A stretch of DNA of 64,000 bases, from the NCBI GenBank assembly GCA_947488655.1, contig CANKZZ010000006.1, forward strand, positions 62,001 through 126,000, read 5' to 3'. This document shows, one piece after another, positions 39,201-63,329 of the stretch. The notes below the pieces were generated by a model. That model ran no database searches and was not told where the DNA came from. It saw nothing but the letters and a program-made list of their open reading frames with translations. Each line of letters opens with the position of its first letter. Within the stretch, counting starts at the first letter, position 1. This stretch comes from an uncultured Psychroserpens sp. GTDB taxonomy: Bacteria > Bacteroidota > Bacteroidia > Flavobacteriales > Flavobacteriaceae. The position numbers and the translations under genes are program-made.

Positions 39201-42200
39201 GTGATTAAAAGATTACCAACCTTCAATTTATATGGTGTTATTCTTCTATTAATTTTAGTAGTGGTTCCACCTTCATATGCTCAAATATTTGAGCAGGCAC
39301 AAAATATCTCTGGGTTAGGAGGCTTAGAAAAAAATAATGGAGTTGCAGTTGCAGATTACGACAATGATAATGATTTAGATATATTCGTTGTGGCTTGGGC
39401 GCAAGATGTAGCTGGCGATGAGACCACACAAAGCAAATTGTATAGAAACAATAATGATGGTTCTTTTACAGATGTTACTGCTCAAGTTGGTTTAACAAAT
39501 TTGCATCCTGTTATTGAAGAAATAGATGATTTTTTTGGGCTTAAAGGCTTCAAACATGGCGTGTCTTGGGGAGATTATAATAATGATGGATTTCCAGATT
39601 TGGTTTTTACTCACTCTAATAAACTTCAACTATTTATTAACCAAGACGGAATTTTCACAGAAGTCACAGAAGGCGCTGGATTAACACAAATTAGTGATTG
39701 CAGACATACTGGAGCAACATGGTTTGATTATAATAACGATGGTTTTTTAGATTTATACGTTAGCGATTGGGACTTTTGCGAAACTAATTCACTTTATCTT
39801 AATAACACCAACGGAACATTCTCTAACGTTACTGTAGAAACTAACATGCAAGACACAGGTGTTAATGCTAGTTATATGGCAGTTCCTTTTGATTTTAATA
39901 ATGATGGTTGGATGGATTTATATGTGTCTAATGATTTAACTAAGCCTAATAGTTTATTTATAAATCAAAACGGAAATTCCTTTACCGAAGAAGCTGCAAG
40001 TTATGGGCTAGATAACATGATTGATGATATGGCTATTGCCATTAACGATTTTAACTTAGATGGTGCTTTTGATTTTTTAATTACAGGAAGAGAAGACAAC
40101 GATCTTTTTGTAAATAATGGAAATAATAATTTTTTAGATCAAACTTCAGCCTTCAATATCTCTGGTACAGGTTGGGCCTGGGGAGCAAAATTTGCAGACT
40201 TTGATCTCGATAGTGATGAAGATTTAATTATAGTTAATGGTTTTGAATTTCAGGATATTAGTGCGCAAAATAATGTGTATTACAAAAATCTGTTTGCAGA
40301 GAATTCATCTGGTTTTGAAGATATTTCCGAAGCATTAAACCTTAACGCGCTTACACAAAGTGTAGAAGCGATAGATTGGGATTATGATAACGATGGCGAT
40401 TTAGATATTTATGTTACCAACTCAGACCAACAATCTATACTCTACGAAAATAAACTTCTAAACTTTGATGAAGACAATACGTTGCAATGGTTTAAAGTTA
40501 ACTTACAAGGTACAATTTCTAATAGAGATGCCATTGGTTCAACGCTAACGTTAAGAACTAATGAGCGTACGTATGTTAGACATTATACAGGAGTTGGGTT
40601 TCTATCTCAAAGTCTCCAAGCTGTCCACTTTGGATTATCAGAAAATATTCAAATTCAGGAATTAGAAATTAAATGGCCTTCAGGATTAATAGAGATTCAT
40701 CAAAATTTAGATGAGAACACAACTATTTTAGCAGTTGAAGGGGAAGGGTTCTCGGTATTAAATATAGAAGCTAGTCAAAAAATTTATGGCTGTACAGATC
40801 CTTTTTCATGTAATTATAACCCTAATGCAACCTTAGAAGATGGTACGTGTACTTATTTAGAACCTAATTCAATAATTGGAGCAACCAGTTCGGGATTTTT
40901 GGCTATTGAAGAATACACTTATCCAATAGCAAATGGTTCTACAGCAAACTGGACAGTATCTGGAGGAGAAATTTTAGAAGGTCAAAATACAAACACAGTT
41001 TCTATAAAATGGGGATTAAATGAGACTGGTATTATAAGCGTTAGAGAAAATAATGGTGATTGTTTTAGTCAACCGCAAGAATTAAATGTGGCTCTAAGTG
41101 CTGCAGATATTCCAGATGATGTATCTATTGCGAGACTCTGGAATGAGGTCTTACTCGAAGCTATTAGAAATGATTTTGCTAGGCCAACAATACATGCCAG
41201 AAACTTGTTTCATACAAGTGTTGCCATGTACGATATTTGGGCAATTTATGATGATGAAGCAAAACCTTTTCTAATAGGAAATACGGTGAACAACTTCTCA
41301 ACCGAATTACTAGATTTTATGCCTTTAGAAAGTATAGAGGCATCTAGAAAAAAAGCTATTAGTTATGCTATGTATCGTTTGTTAACTTATCGTTTTCAAA
41401 ATTCTCCAAATGCCGAAGAATCTCAGCGTTTATTTGATTTAGTAATGGAGCAATTAGGGTATGAAACCACATTTGCTGTTACTACATTGTATCAATTTGG
41501 CAATGCAGCGGCATTAGGGAATTTTGTAGCCCAAAGTATTATTACTTATGGTAACAGTGATGGTTCTAGAGAACTGGATGCATTTACTAATGAATATTAT
41601 GCACCAGTTAATTCATCATTAGGACCAGCTATTCCTACCGTAGATTTAATGTTTGATCCTAATAGATGGCAACCGTTAAGTTTAGATACCTTTATAGATC
41701 AAAGTGGTAATTTAATTTCTGGTTCTACGATAGAGTTTTTAAGTCCAGAATGGGGAAATGTATATCCGTTTGCAATGTCTGCAAATGATCAGGTCACTTA
41801 TTCTAGAGAAGGAAATTCATTTAAGGTTTTTAACGACCCAAGTGATCCACCTTATCTAAATTTAGCTGTTGAGGATGCCTCTAGTGCAGCTTATAAATTA
41901 GGATTTTCTATGGTTTCAATTTGGGGTTCTCATTTAGATCCTAGCGATAATGTGCTTTGGGATATTTCTCCAGGTGCAATTGGCAATACAAATATTTCAC
42001 AGTTTCCTACCAATTATAGCGATTATCCAAATTTTTACAATGTTATTGAGGGAGGAGATATAGGTCAAGGTCATGATGTAAATCCAATTACAGGTCAGCC
42101 TTATGAGTCACAAGTTGTACCAAGAGGAGATTACACCAGAGTGTTAGCAGAGTTTTGGGCAGATGGTCCAGACTCAGAAACACCACCAGGTCATTGGTTT

Positions 42201-43235
42201 ACCATATTAAACTATGTAAATGAACACGAGCAACTAGAGAAAAGATTTGAAGGTGAAGGAGCAGTACTCGATGATTTAGAATGGGATGTGAAATCGTATT
42301 TTATTTTAGGTGGAGCAATGCATGATGCTGCAATTTCTGCATGGAGTATAAAAGGCTGGTATGATTATGTAAGGCCAATTTCAGCAATAAGAAATATGGC
42401 ATTATTGGGTCAAAGTACAGATGAATCATTAAATAATTATCATATTGGAGGCATACCATTAGTAGATGGTTTTGTTGAGGTTGTAGAGGAAAATGATCCT
42501 TTGGTTGGAGAAGAAGGTGTAAATTTTGGTAAAATTAAATTATATACTTGGAGAGGACCAGATTATATAGATGATGAATCTACAGATATTGCAGGTGTTG
42601 GATGGATACTTGCCGAAAATTGGTGGCCATATCAAAGACCTACGTTTGTGACACCTCCATTTGCAGGTTATGTATCTGGACATTCTACTTATTCTCGTGC
42701 AGCCTCAGAAGTCTTAACAAAAATTACAGGAAGTGAATATTTTCCTGGCGGATTAGGAGAATTTACAGCAAAACAAAATGAGTTTTTAGTTTTTGAACAA
42801 GGACCATCGGTTGATGTGAAATTACAATGGGCAACATATAGAGATGCATCAGACCAAACGAGTTTATCAAGAATTTGGGGAGGCATTCATCCGCCTGCCG
42901 ATGATATTCCAGGTAGATTAATTGGCGAAAAAGTGGGTAATCAAGCTTTTGATTTTGCAGTTCCTTATTTCTTCGGAAATGTAACACTTACAGACAATGC
43001 AGAGCAAATAATATATCCAAATCCTGTTATAAATAATGAAGTGTTTATTACACAAACCCAACAAGGTGATAACATAACTGTTTTTGATATTAGAGGCAGA
43101 CAAGTAAATATTCTTAGTACAGACTTTAATGAGTTTGGAAGCGTTACAAAACTTGTTTTTCCTAAAGGCACTGCTACAGGTATGTATTTTCTAAATATAA
43201 ATGAGTCGTCTCAACTGTTAATTATTAAGGATTAA
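39201..43235 (+). CDS. Secreted fusion: FG-GAP/UnbV domain, vanadium-haloperoxidase-like domain and T9SS sorting domain
   Basis: 1344 residues with a GTG start and a signal peptide (LILVVVPPSYAQ). Residues about 30-430 are FG-GAP/VCBS-type repeats with Ca-binding D-x-D-x-D-G loops (DYDNDNDLDI, DYNNDGFPDL, DFNNDGWMDL). An ASPIC/UnbV domain follows at about 440-510, then a short Cys motif (GCTDPFSCNYNPNA). Residues about 630-1265 form a PAP2/vanadium-haloperoxidase-like domain with every active-site element: K-x6-RP (Lys1051), SGH (1159-1161) and R-x5-H (Arg1224, His1230). The last 75 residues (IIYPNPV...GMYFLNI) are a type A sorting domain for type IX secretion. Halogenation or phosphate-ester chemistry outside the cell is likely. 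Confidence 0.85.
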   Translation: MIKRLPTFNLYGVILLLILVVVPPSYAQIFEQAQNISGLGGLEKNNGVAVADYDNDNDLDIFVVAWAQDVAGDETTQSKLYRNNNDGSFTDVTAQVGLTNLHPVIEEIDDFFGLKGFKHGVSWGDYNNDGFPDLVFTHSNKLQLFINQDGIFTEVTEGAGLTQISDCRHTGATWFDYNNDGFLDLYVSDWDFCETNSLYLNNTNGTFSNVTVETNMQDTGVNASYMAVPFDFNNDGWMDLYVSNDLTKPNSLFINQNGNSFTEEAASYGLDNMIDDMAIAINDFNLDGAFDFLITGREDNDLFVNNGNNNFLDQTSAFNISGTGWAWGAKFADFDLDSDEDLIIVNGFEFQDISAQNNVYYKNLFAENSSGFEDISEALNLNALTQSVEAIDWDYDNDGDLDIYVTNSDQQSILYENKLLNFDEDNTLQWFKVNLQGTISNRDAIGSTLTLRTNERTYVRHYTGVGFLSQSLQAVHFGLSENIQIQELEIKWPSGLIEIHQNLDENTTILAVEGEGFSVLNIEASQKIYGCTDPFSCNYNPNATLEDGTCTYLEPNSIIGATSSGFLAIEEYTYPIANGSTANWTVSGGEILEGQNTNTVSIKWGLNETGIISVRENNGDCFSQPQELNVALSAADIPDDVSIARLWNEVLLEAIRNDFARPTIHARNLFHTSVAMYDIWAIYDDEAKPFLIGNTVNNFSTELLDFMPLESIEASRKKAISYAMYRLLTYRFQNSPNAEESQRLFDLVMEQLGYETTFAVTTLYQFGNAAALGNFVAQSIITYGNSDGSRELDAFTNEYYAPVNSSLGPAIPTVDLMFDPNRWQPLSLDTFIDQSGNLISGSTIEFLSPEWGNVYPFAMSANDQVTYSREGNSFKVFNDPSDPPYLNLAVEDASSAAYKLGFSMVSIWGSHLDPSDNVLWDISPGAIGNTNISQFPTNYSDYPNFYNVIEGGDIGQGHDVNPITGQPYESQVVPRGDYTRVLAEFWADGPDSETPPGHWFTILNYVNEHEQLEKRFEGEGAVLDDLEWDVKSYFILGGAMHDAAISAWSIKGWYDYVRPISAIRNMALLGQSTDESLNNYHIGGIPLVDGFVEVVEENDPLVGEEGVNFGKIKLYTWRGPDYIDDESTDIAGVGWILAENWWPYQRPTFVTPPFAGYVSGHSTYSRAASEVLTKITGSEYFPGGLGEFTAKQNEFLVFEQGPSVDVKLQWATYRDASDQTSLSRIWGGIHPPADDIPGRLIGEKVGNQAFDFAVPYFFGNVTLTDNAEQIIYPNPVINNEVFITQTQQGDNITVFDIRGRQVNILSTDFNEFGSVTKLVFPKGTATGMYFLNINESSQLLIIKD

Positions 43236-57809: not shown

Positions 57810-58361
57810 TTAAAACCAATTTTTTTCCATGCAGGCAGCCATAGCGGTTCTAGCTCTATGTATGATTACCCAAAGGTTAGACGCAGTAATTTGTAATTCA
57901 TTACAAATGGCCTCAGTTTCATAATTTAATATTGTTTTCATTTTGAAAACTTGGGCTTGTTTTTCTGGTAATTTACCAATACAGTCATGGATGGCAATAC
58001 CTAACTCGGTATTTTCAATGGTGTCTTCAGCAGTTTTGTCAAAAGGATCTGCAACACGTTCTTCTAACCAATCACCTTCATTTTCATCACTATTGTAAGT
58101 CATTCTAACTTCGGCTTTTCCTTTGTTAGAATTAATTTTACGATAATGATCTATAATTTTTCTTTTTAAAATCGAAATGAGCCATGTACGCTCACTCGCT
58201 TCTCCTTTAAAATTTTTCATAGATTTTAAACCAGCTACAAAAGTGTCCTGAACTAAATCTTGAGCAATCTCTCTATCATTAACACGAGTAATAGTGTAAT
58301 TAAAAAGGTAATCGGAATATAATTTAATCCATTGATTAGGATCTATGACGTGTTTAGGCAT
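57810..58361 (-). CDS. ECF-type RNA polymerase sigma factor
   Basis: 183 residues. Region 2 reads YSDYLFNYTITRVNDREIAQ followed by DLVQDTFVAGLKSM, with the RTWLISILKRKIIDHYRK end of region 2.4. Region 4 is LPEKQAQVFKMKTILNYETE, then ICNELQITASNLWVIIHRAR, the helix-turn-helix that reads the -35 element. The short acidic linker between them is typical for ECF factors. It is co-transcribed with a small zinc-finger gene. A promoter box is 29 bases upstream of its start. Confidence 0.92.
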   Translation of the reverse strand: MPKHVIDPNQWIKLYSDYLFNYTITRVNDREIAQDLVQDTFVAGLKSMKNFKGEASERTWLISILKRKIIDHYRKINSNKGKAEVRMTYNSDENEGDWLEERVADPFDKTAEDTIENTELGIAIHDCIGKLPEKQAQVFKMKTILNYETEAICNELQITASNLWVIIHRARTAMAACMEKNWF

Positions 58362-58424: not shown

Positions 58425-59123
58425 TTACTTATGGATGGTTTTTTTGTTTTTTACACTTACTTTAGAACCTTCAGCAAGAATAATTGATGTTGGTTTAACA
58501 TTTTTTAGATGCTTAAATTGCGATCCGTAATTAGCTTCAAAATCTATATTAATAGTATGATTTTTTACTTTTAATTGTCGCCAAGAAGGGTGTACAACTT
58601 CATATTCAAAAGTTTTGTTTTTGTGTTTGGTGTATCCAAAATAGTGCTCTGTTATGAATTGCTCCTCAGAATTTTCTGGTATTGAGATAAACTCAGTTTC
58701 AGTTTCAACAGAAATAGATTGCCAACTATCTTTTAATTTCCATTGGTATTCAAAGCTTTTTGAAGTCTCACTATTTGTCCATTGGTGTTTCATTTCCGCA
58801 GTAAAATAATGCTCATGATATATAGAATTAGCGACTAAAGTAATTAACGGTTTAGGTACAATTTCTTTTATAAAAACAACACCACGTTCTCCATCTCTTT
58901 GAACATAGAATCTAAGGTTGACCTCTTCAAAATTTATGTGATAAGGTAATTTTATGCCCAATACCTTAGTGTCCATAAATAGAAAACCAACGATGCTTAC
59001 AAAGTATTTGCCATTGTAACTGTCTAACTCTGTTCCTAATGGTACAAAGGGTTCTAAGATTTTTGGGTCGACTTCATAATTAATAAGGATGAGGTTTTTC
59101 CAGTATGCTTTTAAAAATGTCAT
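58425..59123 (-). CDS. DUF2071 (YqjF-like) protein
   Basis: 232 residues, soluble. The N-terminus WKNLILINYEVDPKILEPFV and LDSYNGKYFVSIVGFLFMDT match DUF2071, a family with an acetoacetate-decarboxylase-like fold. NLRFYVQRDGERGVVFIKEI is the central block. The enzymatic role of DUF2071 is not known. It is the last gene of the leftward cluster, starting 2 bases after the stop of the TIGR01777 gene. Confidence 0.85.
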   Translation of the reverse strand: MTFLKAYWKNLILINYEVDPKILEPFVPLGTELDSYNGKYFVSIVGFLFMDTKVLGIKLPYHINFEEVNLRFYVQRDGERGVVFIKEIVPKPLITLVANSIYHEHYFTAEMKHQWTNSETSKSFEYQWKLKDSWQSISVETETEFISIPENSEEQFITEHYFGYTKHKNKTFEYEVVHPSWRQLKVKNHTINIDFEANYGSQFKHLKNVKPTSIILAEGSKVSVKNKKTIHK

Positions 59124-59125
59124 AA

Positions 59126-60028
59126 TTAATAATTTATAAGGTCATCTAATGCGATTTCAATATCTGAATGTAAGAAATTAAACCCATTTTTTAATAAACG
59201 GTCTGGTATGACATTTCTACTTTTTAAAACCAATTCTGGTTCTGTGCCAATGAGTTTAGCTCCAAGTTTAATGAGCCATTCTGGCTGAGGAATTCCAAAA
59301 GGGACATTCATTACTTTTCTAAAAGCGGTCATCAACGTTTTATTATTTGTTGGATTAGGTACTGCTAGGTTAAACGTGCCATCTAGCTCTTCGTTTTCTA
59401 TTAAAAACTCTATAGCTCTAGCAAAGTCTAACTCATGAATCCAACTAACTTTTTGTTGTCCTGAGGCTTGTTTTCCTCCTAAGCCAAACTTTACTAAGTT
59501 TTTTAAAGGCTCTGTTGCGCCACCGTGTTTTCCCATGACGATAGAAGTTCGTAAGGCTATTTTTCTCGTTTTTGGGTTGGTGATTGAGTAAAACGCTTTT
59601 TCCCAAGATTTGGCAATGTTCATAGAGAAGTCTTCACCAATCTCTCCAGCTGCCTCAGTCATTTGTTTATTTGTAGAATGTCTGTAAATTGTCGCAGTAG
59701 AAGAGTTAAACCACACTTTTGGCGGATTATCACAAAGATTTATAGCCAAACCTAATGCATGAGTTGAGTCTACACGAGAATCAAGAATTAGTTTTTTGTT
59801 AGCGTCTGTATATCTACAATCTACAGATTTCCCTGTAAGGTTTATGAGTACATCGGTTTGCTCCAAAATTTTTGTCCATGCTTCAAGGTCTTTTGCATTC
59901 CAATAGATATCGTTATCGCGTTTTACAGATCTTGTTAGTATGTAAACTGTATTGCCTTTTTTAGTAAAGTAGTCTTCTAGGACCTGTCCTAAAAATCCGC
60001 TACCACCAGCTATTGTTATTGTGTTCAT
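59126..60028 (-). CDS. TIGR01777-family epimerase-like (extended SDR) protein
   Basis: 300 residues. TITIAGGSGFLGQVLEDYF carries the G-x-x-G-x-x-G NAD(P)-binding loop, LINLTGKSVDCRYT and SRVDSTHAL are family motifs, and SWIHELDFARAIEFLIEN lies near the middle. LTNTTTNP-type PNPTNNKTLMTAFRKVMNVP and the C-terminal LLKNGFNFLH complete the pattern of YfcH-like proteins. Substrate unknown. The ATG at 60028 overlaps the stop of the DCC gene as ATGA; a longer open frame to 60079 starts inside that gene and is not needed. Confidence 0.88.
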   Translation of the reverse strand: MNTITIAGGSGFLGQVLEDYFTKKGNTVYILTRSVKRDNDIYWNAKDLEAWTKILEQTDVLINLTGKSVDCRYTDANKKLILDSRVDSTHALGLAINLCDNPPKVWFNSSTATIYRHSTNKQMTEAAGEIGEDFSMNIAKSWEKAFYSITNPKTRKIALRTSIVMGKHGGATEPLKNLVKFGLGGKQASGQQKVSWIHELDFARAIEFLIENEELDGTFNLAVPNPTNNKTLMTAFRKVMNVPFGIPQPEWLIKLGAKLIGTEPELVLKSRNVIPDRLLKNGFNFLHSDIEIALDDLINY

Positions 60029-60852
60029 AAGTTTAAAATTAGAATGATTAAAACAATGAGAATTCTGTACAGCACCCAAGTGTAACTTAGAAAACTCGGT
60101 AATTTGAGTAATTTAACACGTCTAAAATGCTCTATGAACATGATAAGGACGGTAATTCCAAATCCTATTAAAAAAATAGTTTCTGAAATTTCAACCATCA
60201 AATGTATTAGCAATAAAGGTACTAATAGCAAACTGCCCATAAGTGAAATGGTCATCACATTTCCGAAGTAATTAAGAATCGTTTTTTTATCTAATTTATA
60301 GATAAGCAACCCTTGAAATAACAACTGACCAATAGTGATAAAACCTTCTCTCATGAAAGAACCATGTGGAATTATTGAAAGGTTTTTAGAAAAATAATAC
60401 AAAGTAAACATGGTGATAATGCTCGAAAACAGGATAAAAAGTAATCGATATTTTACATTAAAACTTGGTACACATTGTAAACGATTTGTTGTGTTTTCTT
60501 CACTTGGTATAATCACTTTGCGATTATATGAAATAAATGAATAAAGTTTTTTTAATAGAAATTTCACAGGTTTTATATGCCCAATTTTTTCAATTATTGA
60601 AAATCTCACACCTATAACTTTCAATAAACTATCAATGCCATAAATGACCGTTTTATTTTTATTGTCTACCAAAGCAATTTCATTAGATGCACGCTCCAGG
60701 TTAATAAAATTTTGACTTTCTGGAGAAATTGTGCTGTATGGTTGTCTTCCGTTTTGATCTAACATTCCAGTTTTTATGAAACCAGAGGTGTAGACTTGAC
60801 ATAACGGACAATCCTCATCATAAAGCAACGTGTGGTGTTCTAGAGTTTTCAT
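60025..60852 (-). CDS. DCC-family (DUF393) thiol protein fused to a membrane domain
   Basis: 275 residues. The N-terminal part has TLLYDEDCPLCQVYTSGFIK, the D-x-D-C-P-x-C site of the DCC family, a thioredoxin-like group of presumed thiol-disulfide proteins. SLLKVIGVRFSIIEKIGHIKP also fits. Residues about 135-275 hold five to six membrane helices (YRLLFILFSSIITMFTLYYF; LMGSLLLVPLLLIHLMVEIS; YRILIVLIILILNL). So this is a two-part protein, longer than a plain DCC domain. The ATG at 60852 overlaps the upstream gene's stop as ATGA, excluding the longer frame. Confidence 0.8.
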   Translation of the reverse strand: MKTLEHHTLLYDEDCPLCQVYTSGFIKTGMLDQNGRQPYSTISPESQNFINLERASNEIALVDNKNKTVIYGIDSLLKVIGVRFSIIEKIGHIKPVKFLLKKLYSFISYNRKVIIPSEENTTNRLQCVPSFNVKYRLLFILFSSIITMFTLYYFSKNLSIIPHGSFMREGFITIGQLLFQGLLIYKLDKKTILNYFGNVMTISLMGSLLLVPLLLIHLMVEISETIFLIGFGITVLIMFIEHFRRVKLLKLPSFLSYTWVLYRILIVLIILILNL

Positions 60853-61196
60853 AGTTTTTGAATTAAATATGTGATGTAAACAAAGTAAGTTGCAATTGAC
60901 ATTGGTATAACACACACAAAAATAATTGTAATTACATGTGGAATATTAAGAGTTACGTTACTTACTAATAGTAGAATGACTAATACTATAAAAGTGAATA
61001 TTACACTTAGTTTATAACGTTTTAAGTGCTTTTTAAGACTTATAGCTTTTGCTCTATATCTGCATAATAGAAAATATAATAATTGAATTATCCCTAAGAA
61101 AAACTGACATAATAAGCCACTAATATTATCAATAAAGACATATGCTAAAAGCGTTGAGAGTAAAAAGATAAGATTGGTGTAAAATAGCGTTTTCAT
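60849..61196 (-). CDS. Small four-helix membrane protein, family A
   Basis: 115 residues with about four helices. FFLGIIQLLYFLLCRYRAKA lies near the middle and VIPMSIATYFVYITYLIQKL ends the protein. The latter matches VIPMVIATYFLYILNSIKHL at the end of the gene at 62038 and, more loosely, the pattern of the gene at 62428, so the three form one paralogous family. No known function. It follows the gene at 61244 by 47 bases, which include a hexamer repeat. Confidence 0.65.
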   Translation of the reverse strand: MKTLFYTNLIFLLSTLLAYVFIDNISGLLCQFFLGIIQLLYFLLCRYRAKAISLKKHLKRYKLSVIFTFIVLVILLLVSNVTLNIPHVITIIFVCVIPMSIATYFVYITYLIQKL

Positions 61197-61214
61197 ATTT
61201 TCAAGTTAAAATCC

Positions 61215-61244
61215 AGGTTAAGGTTCAGGTTCAAGTTCAGTTTC
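61215..61244. repeat. Degenerate hexamer tandem repeat
   Basis: AGGTTA-AGGTTC-AGGTTC-AAGTTC-AGTTTC, five units in the 47-base gap between two small membrane genes; the last base belongs to the stop codon of the upstream gene. Such tracts can change length by slippage. Confidence 0.55.
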
Positions 61245-61657
61245 TACTGTTCATCTCTAACATCATATAGAGGTGTTTTAACGACTTTTTTAAAGCTTTG
61301 TCTAGATTTACGACGACCTCTAAAAAAGAAGAATAAGTTGATAAAAAGCATCACACCTAAGTAGATGGAGAAGCCACCAATTTTCTTACTCAAAATCTCA
61401 ATTAGTGTTTGTGAGCTCATTTCCGCAGTGCTAGAATAACTAATTTTTAAGATGAGTAAAGCCCAACCAATATTGATGAGATAAAAACCAATTTCAAAAA
61501 GTTTATTGGTTGCAAGCGCAATATCTTCTTGACCTTTAAAAATGTCCAGCATAAAGTATTTACCGTTTTTAAAAAGCATTTTAGAAACATAAATCGTGAG
61601 TATGATTACGATTGGTAAATAGATGAGGTAACCGATGATGATTTTAGAATTTTCCAT
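61244..61657 (-). CDS. Small membrane protein, family B
   Basis: 137 residues with three to four helices. YLIYLPIVIILTIYVSKMLF and NKLFEIGFYLINIGWALLIL match the corresponding blocks of the gene at 61673 (CIYLPIIAVIMVKVGWMFY; NNLLLIGYYLTNLGYAIITL), so the two are paralogues. A charged C-terminal tail (FRGRRKSRQSFKKVVK) is on the cytoplasmic side by the positive-inside rule. The family is unnamed to me. It is 15 bases after the gene at 61673. Confidence 0.65.
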   Translation of the reverse strand: MENSKIIIGYLIYLPIVIILTIYVSKMLFKNGKYFMLDIFKGQEDIALATNKLFEIGFYLINIGWALLILKISYSSTAEMSSQTLIEILSKKIGGFSIYLGVMLFINLFFFFRGRRKSRQSFKKVVKTPLYDVRDEQ

Positions 61658-61672
61658 GATATAATATTTAGT

Positions 61673-62038
61673 TTATTGTTTTGAATTATTGTTTAAAGTT
61701 TTTGATTTTACGAGATAGTTAAGGCAGAGCACATTGTTGTAATGTAAAATGGCTAAGCCAATGATTATGACGCCTAAATGTTCGCTTAATGTGCTTAGCA
61801 TTTCGGTTAGATTATTAATTTTTTCCCAATAAGCAAGCGTGATAATTGCATAACCTAGATTTGTGAGATAGTAACCAATAAGCAAAAGGTTGTTAATTGG
61901 TTTTACAATGGTTTCATCTTGTTTGTATAAATGCAATAAAAATACTTCGCCATGGGTGTAAAACATCCACCCAACCTTTACCATAATCACAGCGATGATT
62001 GGTAAGTAAATGCAATATGTGAGGATGTTGTAGTTCAT
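61673..62038 (-). CDS. Small membrane protein, family B (paralogue)
   Basis: 121 residues, three to four helices. The N-terminal helix (CIYLPIIAVIMVKVGWMFY) and the segment IVKPINNLLLIGYYLTNLGY align with the protein at 61244. The last base of its upstream neighbour and its own first base coincide at 62038, so translation is coupled. Function unknown. Confidence 0.65.
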   Translation of the reverse strand: MNYNILTYCIYLPIIAVIMVKVGWMFYTHGEVFLLHLYKQDETIVKPINNLLLIGYYLTNLGYAIITLAYWEKINNLTEMLSTLSEHLGVIIIGLAILHYNNVLCLNYLVKSKTLNNNSKQ

Positions 62039-62382
62039 TACTTTAGGTGTTTAATTGAGTTAAGGATGTATAAAAAGTAAGTGGCAATTACCATTGGTAT
62101 AACCATTACAGTTGCAATTACTATTGCAAATTCATTAATTGTATCCCAGTTGTGTAACCAAAATATCCAGCAAATGCCATAAACACCAATGATAACCCAA
62201 TAGATACTTAAATGTTCTTTTGTTTTCTTTGAAAATTTCCCCCAGGACAATAACAAGATTATTGCACTTATAATTTGCAATGCACCAAGGATTACTTGTG
62301 AAAGCATGCCTCCAACAACTGTAAAGTATAATACTAGTGTTATTATGAATATGACTTTATTTATGTTATATATTATTTTCAT
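62038..62382 (-). CDS. Small four-helix membrane protein, family A (paralogue)
   Basis: 114 residues. IFIITLVLYFTVVGGMLSQV, then ILGALQIISAIILLLSWGKF, and VIPMVIATYFLYILNSIKHL at the end mark it as a relative of the proteins at 60849 and 62428. An operator-like palindrome lies 18 bases before its start codon. It heads the stretch of coupled genes down to DUF2071. Confidence 0.65.
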   Translation of the reverse strand: MKIIYNINKVIFIITLVLYFTVVGGMLSQVILGALQIISAIILLLSWGKFSKKTKEHLSIYWVIIGVYGICWIFWLHNWDTINEFAIVIATVMVIPMVIATYFLYILNSIKHLK

Positions 62383-62400
62383 GTCTATAGTAATTATTAA

Positions 62401-62422
62401 ACTTTCAGAAAATATTGAAAGT
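62401..62422 (-). promoter_or_regulatory. Operator-like palindrome, copy 1 (in front of the gene at 62038)
   Basis: ACTTTCA (62401-62407), 8 bases, TGAAAGT (62416-62422). The whole 22-base site is identical to copy 2 at 62724. It sits where RNA polymerase must bind to serve the downstream gene, which suggests repression by the GbsR-type regulator encoded nearby. Confidence 0.7.
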
Positions 62423-62427
62423 AACTG

Positions 62428-62706
62428 TTAAATTTTTTTTGTGTGAATGGTGCAGGTTAATAAAATCATTAAACCCAAGATTACTAAAAATTGCCATCCA
62501 AAAGGATTGCCTTCCCAAATCATAAAAAAGATTGCAACAACAGTGAAATAGATGTAGATTAATTTTTCCTTCGGAAATGCGATAAAAAACAAAACCGCAG
62601 CTAAAATTTGAAGAATTCCAGTGAGCATTAACCCGTAACCAAGCCAAATTAAGCAAAGTAGTGCGATGATATTTATAACTTTAGATATTTGTAGAATAGT
62701 TTTCAT
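62428..62706 (-). CDS. Small membrane protein, family A (shortest member)
   Basis: 92 residues with three to four helices: VINIIALLCLIWLGYGLMLT, GILQILAAVLFFIAFPKEKL, IYFTVVAIFFMIWEGNPFGW and FLVILGLMILLTCTI. The GILQILAAVLFFIAF block corresponds to LGALQIISAIILLLSW in the gene at 62038. Its start is preceded at 17 bases by operator copy 2. It lies between the regulator and the rest of the cluster and may be a separate transcript. Confidence 0.65.
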   Translation of the reverse strand: MKTILQISKVINIIALLCLIWLGYGLMLTGILQILAAVLFFIAFPKEKLIYIYFTVVAIFFMIWEGNPFGWQFLVILGLMILLTCTIHTKKI

Positions 62707-62723
62707 AATTTTAGTGTTATAGA

Positions 62724-62745
62724 ACTTTCAGAAAATATTGAAAGT
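62724..62745 (-). promoter_or_regulatory. Operator-like palindrome, copy 2 (in front of the gene at 62428)
   Basis: ACTTTCA (62724-62730), GAAAATAT, TGAAAGT (62739-62745), the same 22 bases and nearly the same distance to the start codon as copy 1. The flanking A/T-runs are also alike, so the promoter region was duplicated together with the gene. Confidence 0.7.
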
Positions 62746-62761
62746 AGTGTTTAAATTTTTT

Positions 62762-63265
62762 TTATTTTATTAGTTTAAGTAAAGACTTTGTAATCCAGTT
62801 TTGCTTTTGATTTACTAATTTGTTAATCATATCATCGGCTGTTTCGGTTAAATCATGTAATGCCTTAGTTTGTTTAATCAACTCTTTTGTCGCTTCGGTT
62901 CCGTCATCTTTAATAGAGGAGACTTCTTTTAATACTTTTATAACGGGCTGGATTTCTCTACGACTACGTTCTTTAGCAATCACTCTTGCCAATTCTTGTA
63001 CATCTTTTTCTGTCGTAAAATACTCTTTACGCTCTCCAGGAATAATCTCTTTAGTTACAATTCCCCAATCCATCAATTGACGTAAATTCATACTTGTATT
63101 ACCACGAGAAATTTGAAGATCTTCCATAATATCTTCCATAGACAAAGGTTTTGTAGAAATAAAAAGTAAGGCTTGTATTTGTGCCATTGCTTTATTAATT
63201 CCCCAAAGAGAACCTAAACTTCCCCAAGTACTTACAAATTTTATTTTAGCTTCGTCGTAATTCAT
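62762..63265 (-). CDS. GbsR/MarR-family transcriptional regulator
   Basis: 167 residues. KFVSTWGSLGSLWGINKAMA opens the winged-helix domain in the GbsR manner. STKPLSMEDIMEDLQISRGN and TSMNLRQLMDWGIVTKEIIP form the helix-turn-helix, with the wing at PGERKEYFTT. The C-terminal part is helical and probably dimerises. GbsR of Bacillus represses choline-uptake genes; here the ligand is unknown. The ATG at 63265 is preferred to an in-frame TTG at 63286, because that codon overlaps a promoter box. The gene heads the leftward cluster and has a palindrome in front of it. Confidence 0.9.
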   Translation of the reverse strand: MNYDEAKIKFVSTWGSLGSLWGINKAMAQIQALLFISTKPLSMEDIMEDLQISRGNTSMNLRQLMDWGIVTKEIIPGERKEYFTTEKDVQELARVIAKERSRREIQPVIKVLKEVSSIKDDGTEATKELIKQTKALHDLTETADDMINKLVNQKQNWITKSLLKLIK

Positions 63266-63283
63266 TTTTGTTGTTTTACATGA

Positions 63284-63291
63284 CAAATATA
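63284..63291 (-). promoter_or_regulatory. -7 promoter box of the GbsR-type regulator gene
   Basis: The minus strand reads TATATTTG, 18 bases before the ATG at 63265, with operator copy 3 starting 10 bases further upstream. A repressor bound there would cover the -33 region, consistent with autoregulation. Confidence 0.55.
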
Positions 63292-63301
63292 TTAAATATT
63301 T

Positions 63302-63329
63302 TAAACTTTCAATAATAATTGAAAGTTTA
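63302..63329 (-). promoter_or_regulatory. Operator-like palindrome, copy 3 (perfect 12-base arms)
   Basis: TAAACTTTCAAT (63302-63313), AATA, ATTGAAAGTTTA (63318-63329): a perfect inverted repeat containing the same ACTTTCA-N8-TGAAAGT core as copies 1 and 2. It lies between the regulator promoter and the terminator of the peptidase gene. Confidence 0.75.

Follow-up and report, generated by a model that had tools for sequence, protein, structure and literature searches.

What does a regulator control when the same operator-like palindrome occurs three times around its gene? The window analysed here, a whole stretch of 64,000 nt of Psychroserpens DNA, carries ACTTTCA-N8-TGAAAGT at 62401-62422, 62724-62745 and 63305-63326, beside a gene for a MarR-type regulator. 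An earlier description made from the letters alone, the sequence-only reading, had reported these three palindromes, and its details are borne out: the first two copies match each other at all 22 bases and stand 18 and 17 bp ahead of the ATGs at 62382 and 62706, and the third has perfect 12-base arms, TAAACTTTCAAT-AATA-ATTGAAAGTTTA, with the box TATATTTG downstream of it at 63284-63291. We refer to the copy upstream of the regulator gene as U, to the copy between the regulator stop and the next start as D, and to the remaining copy as D'. From the arrangement of these sites in the window genome and its relatives, we propose that the locus encodes an autoregulated repressor, with its promoter shut at U and read-through gated at D, and we put the probability of this whole reading at roughly 60%.

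The regulator gene (62762..63265, (-) strand) encodes a protein of 167 aa that was placed by homology, Pfam and a structure model. Its best PDB sequence match is MJ223 of Methanocaldococcus jannaschii (PDB 1KU9; phmmer E 9.5e-20, residues 4-146 of 167), which is also the top structure match, since a monomer model with a pLDDT of 90 finds 1ku9 first in Foldseek (E 3.0e-10, TM 0.59/0.64). A Pfam MarR_2 match stands above its cut-off. On this sequence and model evidence, the regulator is a member of the GbsR/MJ223 branch of the MarR superfamily. The sequence-only reading had named it GbsR type, which is correct for the branch and not for a choline regulator, as the protein scores 51.6 bits against the NCBIfam CudC equivalog, below the cut-off of 218. 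Among the matches listed, the closest named relatives are from Psychroserpens, at 96% identity, and a search for a second copy in the genome returned no further match at E<=1. Across 36 diverse members, S53-R54-G55-N56 and R62 in the recognition region do not vary, and the palindromic operator suggests that the regulator is a dimer.

Frequent occurrence of the motif elsewhere in the genome, which the sequence-only reading had named as evidence against itself, was not found. In the 3.6-Mb genome searched, ACTTTCA-N8-TGAAAGT has three exact copies, every one at the regulator locus, and no copy with one mismatch. Two mismatches add 29 copies per strand, giving 32 matches per strand at <=2 mismatches compared with 42 for the reversed control pattern, while the window itself holds four such matches against 0.81 expected, a number reached in 1 of 100 shuffles. 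For the bare core, TTTCA-N8-TGAAA, the genome count per strand is 21, against 15 for its control. Inspection of 15 of the 18 other core matches found none with a tract or promoter box, of the kinds described below, at the position typical of D or U. Local exact copies and other core matches without context thus give no support to a regulon scattered across the regulator's own genome.

The motif tracks the regulator through many families, as found in the comparison of relatives that the sequence-only reading had proposed. The family set comprises 199 genomes, 60 of them with a match at E<=0.001 and 39 counted as orthologues on the strength of a near full-length match with an identity of >=41%. 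The class set comprises 88 of 132 match rows (43-61% identity by tblastn), leaving out 42 weaker rows and the rows of G000 and G127, already in the family set, and the named set consists of the best 80 of at least 587 relatives, mostly Flavobacteriaceae, in part repeating the family set. Among the named relatives is the laboratory species Flavobacterium johnsoniae, whose genome has an orthologue (L314). At U, the core is present in 38/38 family loci, 75/88 class-level loci and 80/80 named loci (the best 80 of at least 587). Behind the regulator gene, at D, it is present in 39/39, 59/87 and 78/80 (again the best 80 of at least 587), one family locus (L106) being cut by a contig end so that its U is unreadable, hence 38 family U loci against 39 D loci. 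Shuffled class-level flanks gave a mean of 0.0 loci with a core at U and 0.1 at D. The motif is therefore not absent from relatives that keep the genes. Exceptions are found at class level, where 10 of the 88 loci have no exact core nearby, among them L162 with both sites at one mismatch each, and where D is missing behind the regulator in 28 of 87, with a D-type site further on in L135, L145, L150 and L178.

How far the operator reaches beyond these sets can be read from more distant proteins. None of 20 weaker MarR relatives (20 of 30 weak match rows inspected) has the core beside its gene, and we reject the idea that MarR genes in general carry the motif. We also read 20 loci outside the class (L343-L362): in the four with the best model scores a core lies 39-52 bp upstream of the gene start, in one GC-rich locus it lies 187 bp upstream, and in 15 none is nearby. 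Presence in class-level loci, together with absence from weaker relatives and from most outside-class loci, makes the operator a property of one clade of the branch. The recognition helix does not account for this by itself, because it is similar in most outside-class loci although 15 of the 20 have no core. In 5 of the 10 class-level loci without a core, the helix has exactly the form that is most frequent in the remaining loci. We accordingly found no support for recognition helix and operator varying together.

These helix comparisons leave some room for the view that some other transcription factor binds the sites, the neighbouring regulator being a co-regulated bystander: a similar helix in distant relatives does not predict the core, and binding by the regulator is something we infer. 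What makes this view very unlikely is where the sites are found. The exact copies are confined to the locus, with the 15 of 18 other core matches inspected showing no context, and the sites follow the regulator while the genes behind them change. Moreover, an exact 22-mer stands beside the regulator gene in 32 of the 39 orthologue-bearing family genomes, whereas the 160 family genomes without an orthologue hold 7 stray copies, which is the control level: with 2 more strays in orthologue-bearing genomes, the 9 stray exact matches equal the 9 genomes with a reversed-control match in a hand tally of the 199 family genomes. Judged from this distribution, the candidate operator TTTCA-N8-TGAAA almost certainly belongs to this regulator. 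For the anatomy of the sites, the loci were pooled after removal of identical stretches, leaving 192 U and 176 D loci in which close relatives are still counted apart.

Operator U (63305..63326, (-) strand; core 63307-63324) lies upstream of the regulator gene and overlaps its -33 box, and its core is conserved in orthologous loci. The candidate -33 element is the TTG at 63310..63312 (-) in the right arm of U, 18 nt before TATATTTG, the Bacteroidota -7 box of the regulator promoter (63284..63291, (-) strand). Both parts are kept in relatives, with the first T of the TTG (offset 14) being T in 167/193 U sites and TANNTTTG standing at a fixed offset of 35-37 from U in 168/193 loci (74 at offset 35, 58 at 36 and 36 at 37). 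By the overlap with TTG and by this fixed offset of TANNTTTG, the sequence places an operator over the predicted promoter of the regulator's own gene, the arrangement looked for under autoregulation, and U very probably acts by blocking the regulator promoter.

The same promoter predicts an unusual transcript. In 144 of 192 loci, the -7 box ends 3-5 nt before the ATG (3 nt in 11, 4 nt in 131 and 5 nt in 2), the exact box being missing in 19 of the 192. Probable promoters of F. johnsoniae have 4 or 5 nt between the -7 element and the start site, according to the available part of PMC6847099. Taken together, the two distances predict a leaderless regulator mRNA, one that would begin at or beside the start codon in most relatives. 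In the Psychroserpens window, the ATG lies 39 bp behind U, which implies a longer leader there, as in some other genomes. If correct, the leaderless regulator mRNA is conserved in a phylum in which few leaderless mRNAs are reported, with 5.5% in F. psychrophilum and leaders of >10 nt in 87% of the predicted F. johnsoniae transcripts with a probable promoter, as given in the available parts of PMC9723704 and PMC6847099, respectively.

The two copies that the sequence-only reading had set before small membrane genes do stand there, yet they do not look like ordinary promoter operators, for they have no -7 box, are placed behind the regulator gene and have a phased A/T tract ahead of them. D (62724..62745, (-) strand), a candidate read-through gate whose core recurs in relatives, is preceded by an A8T3 tract (62753..62763, (-)) that ends 8 nt before it and overlaps the regulator stop codon. 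D' (62401..62422, (-)), the second internal gate candidate, follows a second A8T3 tract (62430..62440, (-)) placed over the last codons, K-K-I-stop, of a 92-aa gene. Within 60 bp of D, TANNTTTG occurs in 5 of 176 loci and is absent from the other 171, and upstream of D it was observed twice against 6.35 times in shuffles. Set against the 168 of 193 U sites that have it, this rejects a canonical promoter at D.

In place of the promoter box, the D sites have a tract in fixed register. For tracts of >=8, the end falls at -8 in 106 of the 176 D sites and at -9 in 14 more (120 together), and elsewhere between -60 and -3 of D only 7 such ends occur; at U, the same test finds one end at -8 and one at -9 among 193. 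The D tracts consist of A/T without a TpA step, mostly A6-8T3-4 or A0-3T6-9. At >=7, they precede the first D in 141/176 loci, 74 of them A7T3-like and 67 T7-like, at the same place in different genomes. The tract is independent of the preceding gene, since it covers the regulator stop codon at D and the K-K-I-stop of another gene at D'. Of the 35 D sites lacking a tract of >=7, 27 are preceded instead by a terminator-like hairpin and a short T-run (1.0 in shuffled sequence), so that 168 of 176 loci have either a tract or a hairpin immediately ahead of D. Such hairpins also accompany 13 of the 67 T-type tracts (shuffled 3.5) and none of the 74 A-type tracts (shuffled 0.6), making 40 of 176 overall. 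The A7T3-like tract is not an obvious termination signal, and there is no hairpin at any of its 74 sites.

The arrangement recurs within operons. In 13 loci, the window included, a secondary D-type site with its tract stands before a later gene, whereas a tract of >=7 is missing from all 15 remaining core matches of these stretches; the class-level stretches carry no gene annotation, and the position before a start codon was judged by eye. In the window, the likeness of D and D' extends over a 47-bp unit that includes the A8T3 tract and is 87% identical, and the proteins encoded behind the two sites have about 24% identity. One could read the 22-bp identity as a mere relic of a tandem duplication of small membrane genes, as the two proteins are distant paralogues and the unit is common to both copies. 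Of all the explanations considered, we hold this one to be the least probable, because the unit has been kept at 87% while the proteins have not, and because units built alike occur in 12 other loci.

D could also act as RNA: in the leader of the gene that follows, its palindrome would fold into a hairpin that controls translation or mRNA stability. Its position would suit this, as the distance from the end of D to the start codon is 14-18 nt in 118/176 loci, and its arms could pair. The pairing statistics do not bear it out: in 107 distinct D sites, the outer pair 1-20 is Watson-Crick in 36 against 31.3 expected under independence, and the pair 8-13 in 32 against 51.0, below expectation. Moreover, the same core is found at U, upstream of the predicted transcription start. 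We therefore reject an RNA hairpin as the main function of D and consider this explanation highly improbable.

A more serious rival would give the downstream genes their own promoter, one for which D serves as operator and which a sigma factor without need of TANNTTTG, perhaps the nearby ECF factor, reads. On this account, which we regard as doubtful though worth keeping, the hairpin or tract before D would be the end of the regulator transcription unit or an UP-like element. The terminator-like hairpins before D (40/176 in all, distributed as 13/67, 27/35 and 0/74) would then be natural. An ECF-type sigma factor gene lies in the window at 57810..58361 ((-) strand; nearest TIGR02943, below the cut-off with 134.4 bits against 162.2), and 33 of the 39 family loci have a relative of it inside the stretch read (encoded on the opposite strand in L107 and following opposite-strand ORFs in a few). 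Behind the ECF gene, family F4 (about 85 aa; 31 loci) has C and H residues and may, as judged by eye, be an anti-sigma factor. D is nevertheless present in L112 and L113, where the stretch read has no such sigma gene. The sequence TTTAAAA behind D is conserved, a point in favor of this rival, but it is present behind U too and so is not D-specific, which counts against a separate promoter. Besides the rarity of TANNTTTG near D (5/176), offset 14 is C in 131 of 176 D sites, which removes the TTG usable as a -33 element in U and breaks the palindrome. In L141, L183, L197 and L210, the apparent start codon follows D by 0 or 1 nt, leaving little room for a promoter there. From this balance of sequence features, we favor, with modest confidence, the interpretation that D gates read-through rather than having its own promoter.

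An autoregulated repressor with a gate behind its own gene could work as follows. The 167-aa protein, as a dimer, would repress its own operon through the operator TTTCA-N8-TGAAA, usually embedded in ACTTTCA-N8-TGAAAGT. Bound at U, the dimer would cover the -33 element of its own promoter and block initiation, giving negative feedback. A transcript from the regulator promoter would run through the regulator gene into the operon, and a dimer at D (and at D' in the window genome) would obstruct RNA polymerase where it has just passed an A/T tract or terminator-like hairpin, and stop read-through. Low-level synthesis of the regulator could thereby continue with the membrane-related genes behind it kept silent and more tightly closed, until a ligand releases the regulator from both kinds of site and the operon opens. 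Binding, repression, a roadblock or termination at D, and the ligand are each steps that we infer from the arrangement of the sites.

Both halves of this scheme have precedents in the same branch, to which the B. subtilis proteins are joined by homology to MJ223. In B. subtilis, GbsR is a roadblock downstream of the start site and OpcR covers the -35 region (available part of PMC7396694), which are the two modes proposed here for D and U. There, two proteins with different operators divide the modes and control choline/betaine genes, whereas here one protein with one operator would use both modes on its own operon. The operators differ as well: the half-sites of B. subtilis GbsR are described as lying 4 bp apart, compared with arms of 5-7 bp set 8 bp apart in the present operator. 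A scan of ten window proteins revealed no choline/betaine gene, and the 63 first genes behind D that were scanned match other families or none. For MJ223, the top match of our regulator, PMC7396694 in its available part calls function and operator unknown. CrtR of Corynebacterium glutamicum, a MarR-type protein likened to the regulator by its description, binds the DNA that separates its own gene from a carotenoid gene, but it has a long footprint in which its authors found no inverted repeat, according to the available part of PMC6739363. Roadblock and -35 cover are already known from B. subtilis, and what is new is the candidate operator for this regulator branch, widespread in Bacteroidota. 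We found no operator for Bacteroidota GbsR proteins described in the open-access literature, subscription journals lying largely outside that search.

The tract before D invites a further step. Tentatively, D may be a repressor-gated terminator, in which a bound MarR-type dimer halts the polymerase and makes a weak terminator efficient. By analogy, it might then do in bacteria, under ligand control, what the Reb1/TTF1 terminators do for RNA polymerase I, an equally uncertain idea. In those terminators, the polymerase is reported to pause in T-rich DNA, 15 bp before it reaches the roadblock site (available part of PMC12366685). The likeness would lie in a roadblock site after a T-rich stretch with a hairpin upstream, and at D the tract covers the position 15 bp ahead of the core. 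The differences are that Reb1/TTF1 terminators are eukaryotic, constitutive and unrelated in sequence, and that about half of the D tracts (74/141) are A7T3-like without a hairpin. The same part of PMC12366685 reports no quick RNA release from a roadblock plus T-rich stretch without a hairpin, and describes Lac repressor and LexA as poor substitutes as roadblocks for the RNA polymerase I terminator, both of which weaken the gated-terminator reading. Possibly, though we would not lean on it, the tract, 7-nt gap and operator form a portable part that recurs within operons and has been kept together with the leaderless regulator mRNA in many Bacteroidota families. In open-access literature, some of it available only in part, we found no description of a bacterial roadblock combined with a U-tract or terminator. 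If the D gate is real, it would be a compact natural read-through switch without a promoter and a possible genetic part for Bacteroidota.

What the switch controls varies. In the window, the first gene behind D (62428..62706; this and all the following genes are on the (-) strand) encodes a small protein of 92 aa without a Pfam match, its membrane nature being judged by eye. The first gene behind D' (62038..62382) encodes a small membrane protein of 114 aa, and further ones of 121 aa (family F6, 61673..62038), 137 aa (F6, 61244..61657) and 115 aa (F11, 60849..61196) follow. These five consecutive small membrane-type genes, at 60849-62706, form two groups of distant paralogues with no Pfam match above cut-off. 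None of the small membrane families found a convincing Pfam name, and families F19 and F26 likewise had no convincing match. Behind them come a DCC1-like protein (60025..60855; 26.5 bits against a Pfam cut-off of 27.8), an epimerase-like oxidoreductase of the TIGR01777 family (59126..60028) and a DUF2071 protein (58425..59123).

In the 39 family loci, the genes behind D include a TIGR01777-type oxidoreductase in 23, methyltransferases of families F14 in 13 and F16 in 9, DUF2071 in 12, a DoxX-like protein (F18) in 8, a DCC1-like protein (F21) in 5 and several small membrane families, assignments that are rough as they rest on longest-ORF calls. Of 121 first genes, 63 were scanned, with matches to methyltransferases in 10 (9 also CMAS), DCC1-like proteins in 8, the epimerase plus DUF1731 (TIGR01777) type in 3, fatty-acid desaturase in 2, DoxX_3 in 2, DUF2071 in 1 and transpeptidase in 1, many of the rest being unnamed. 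These 63 were picked for variety, so that the counts are not frequencies, and some first ORFs are open or doubtful. Since the first gene behind D differs between relatives (methyltransferase, DCC1-like, TIGR01777-type, DoxX-like, DUF2071 or small membrane protein), the regulated unit is probably the operon. To this extent the sequence-only reading needs amendment: comparative evidence points to the autoregulated repressor with a local regulon that it had proposed, and the unit under control is probably an operon rather than two particular genes.

The pattern that emerges may be described as a constant switch with a variable cargo, with a membrane or lipid theme. The cargo, including cyclopropane-synthase-type SAM methyltransferases, fatty-acid desaturase, DoxX-like, DCC1-like and TIGR01777-type proteins, suggests membrane functions. 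A 2018 survey of GbsR proteins obtained no consistent picture for the Bacteroidetes group from gene neighbourhoods, as stated in the available part of PMC6207618. The candidate operator makes the role of this Bacteroidetes branch testable, with the regulator's own operon as the likely target. Elsewhere in the window, at 39201-43235, lies a gene for a 1344-aa protein that appears secreted by the look of its start and has repeated D-x-D-x-D motifs, FG-GAP-like as judged by eye.
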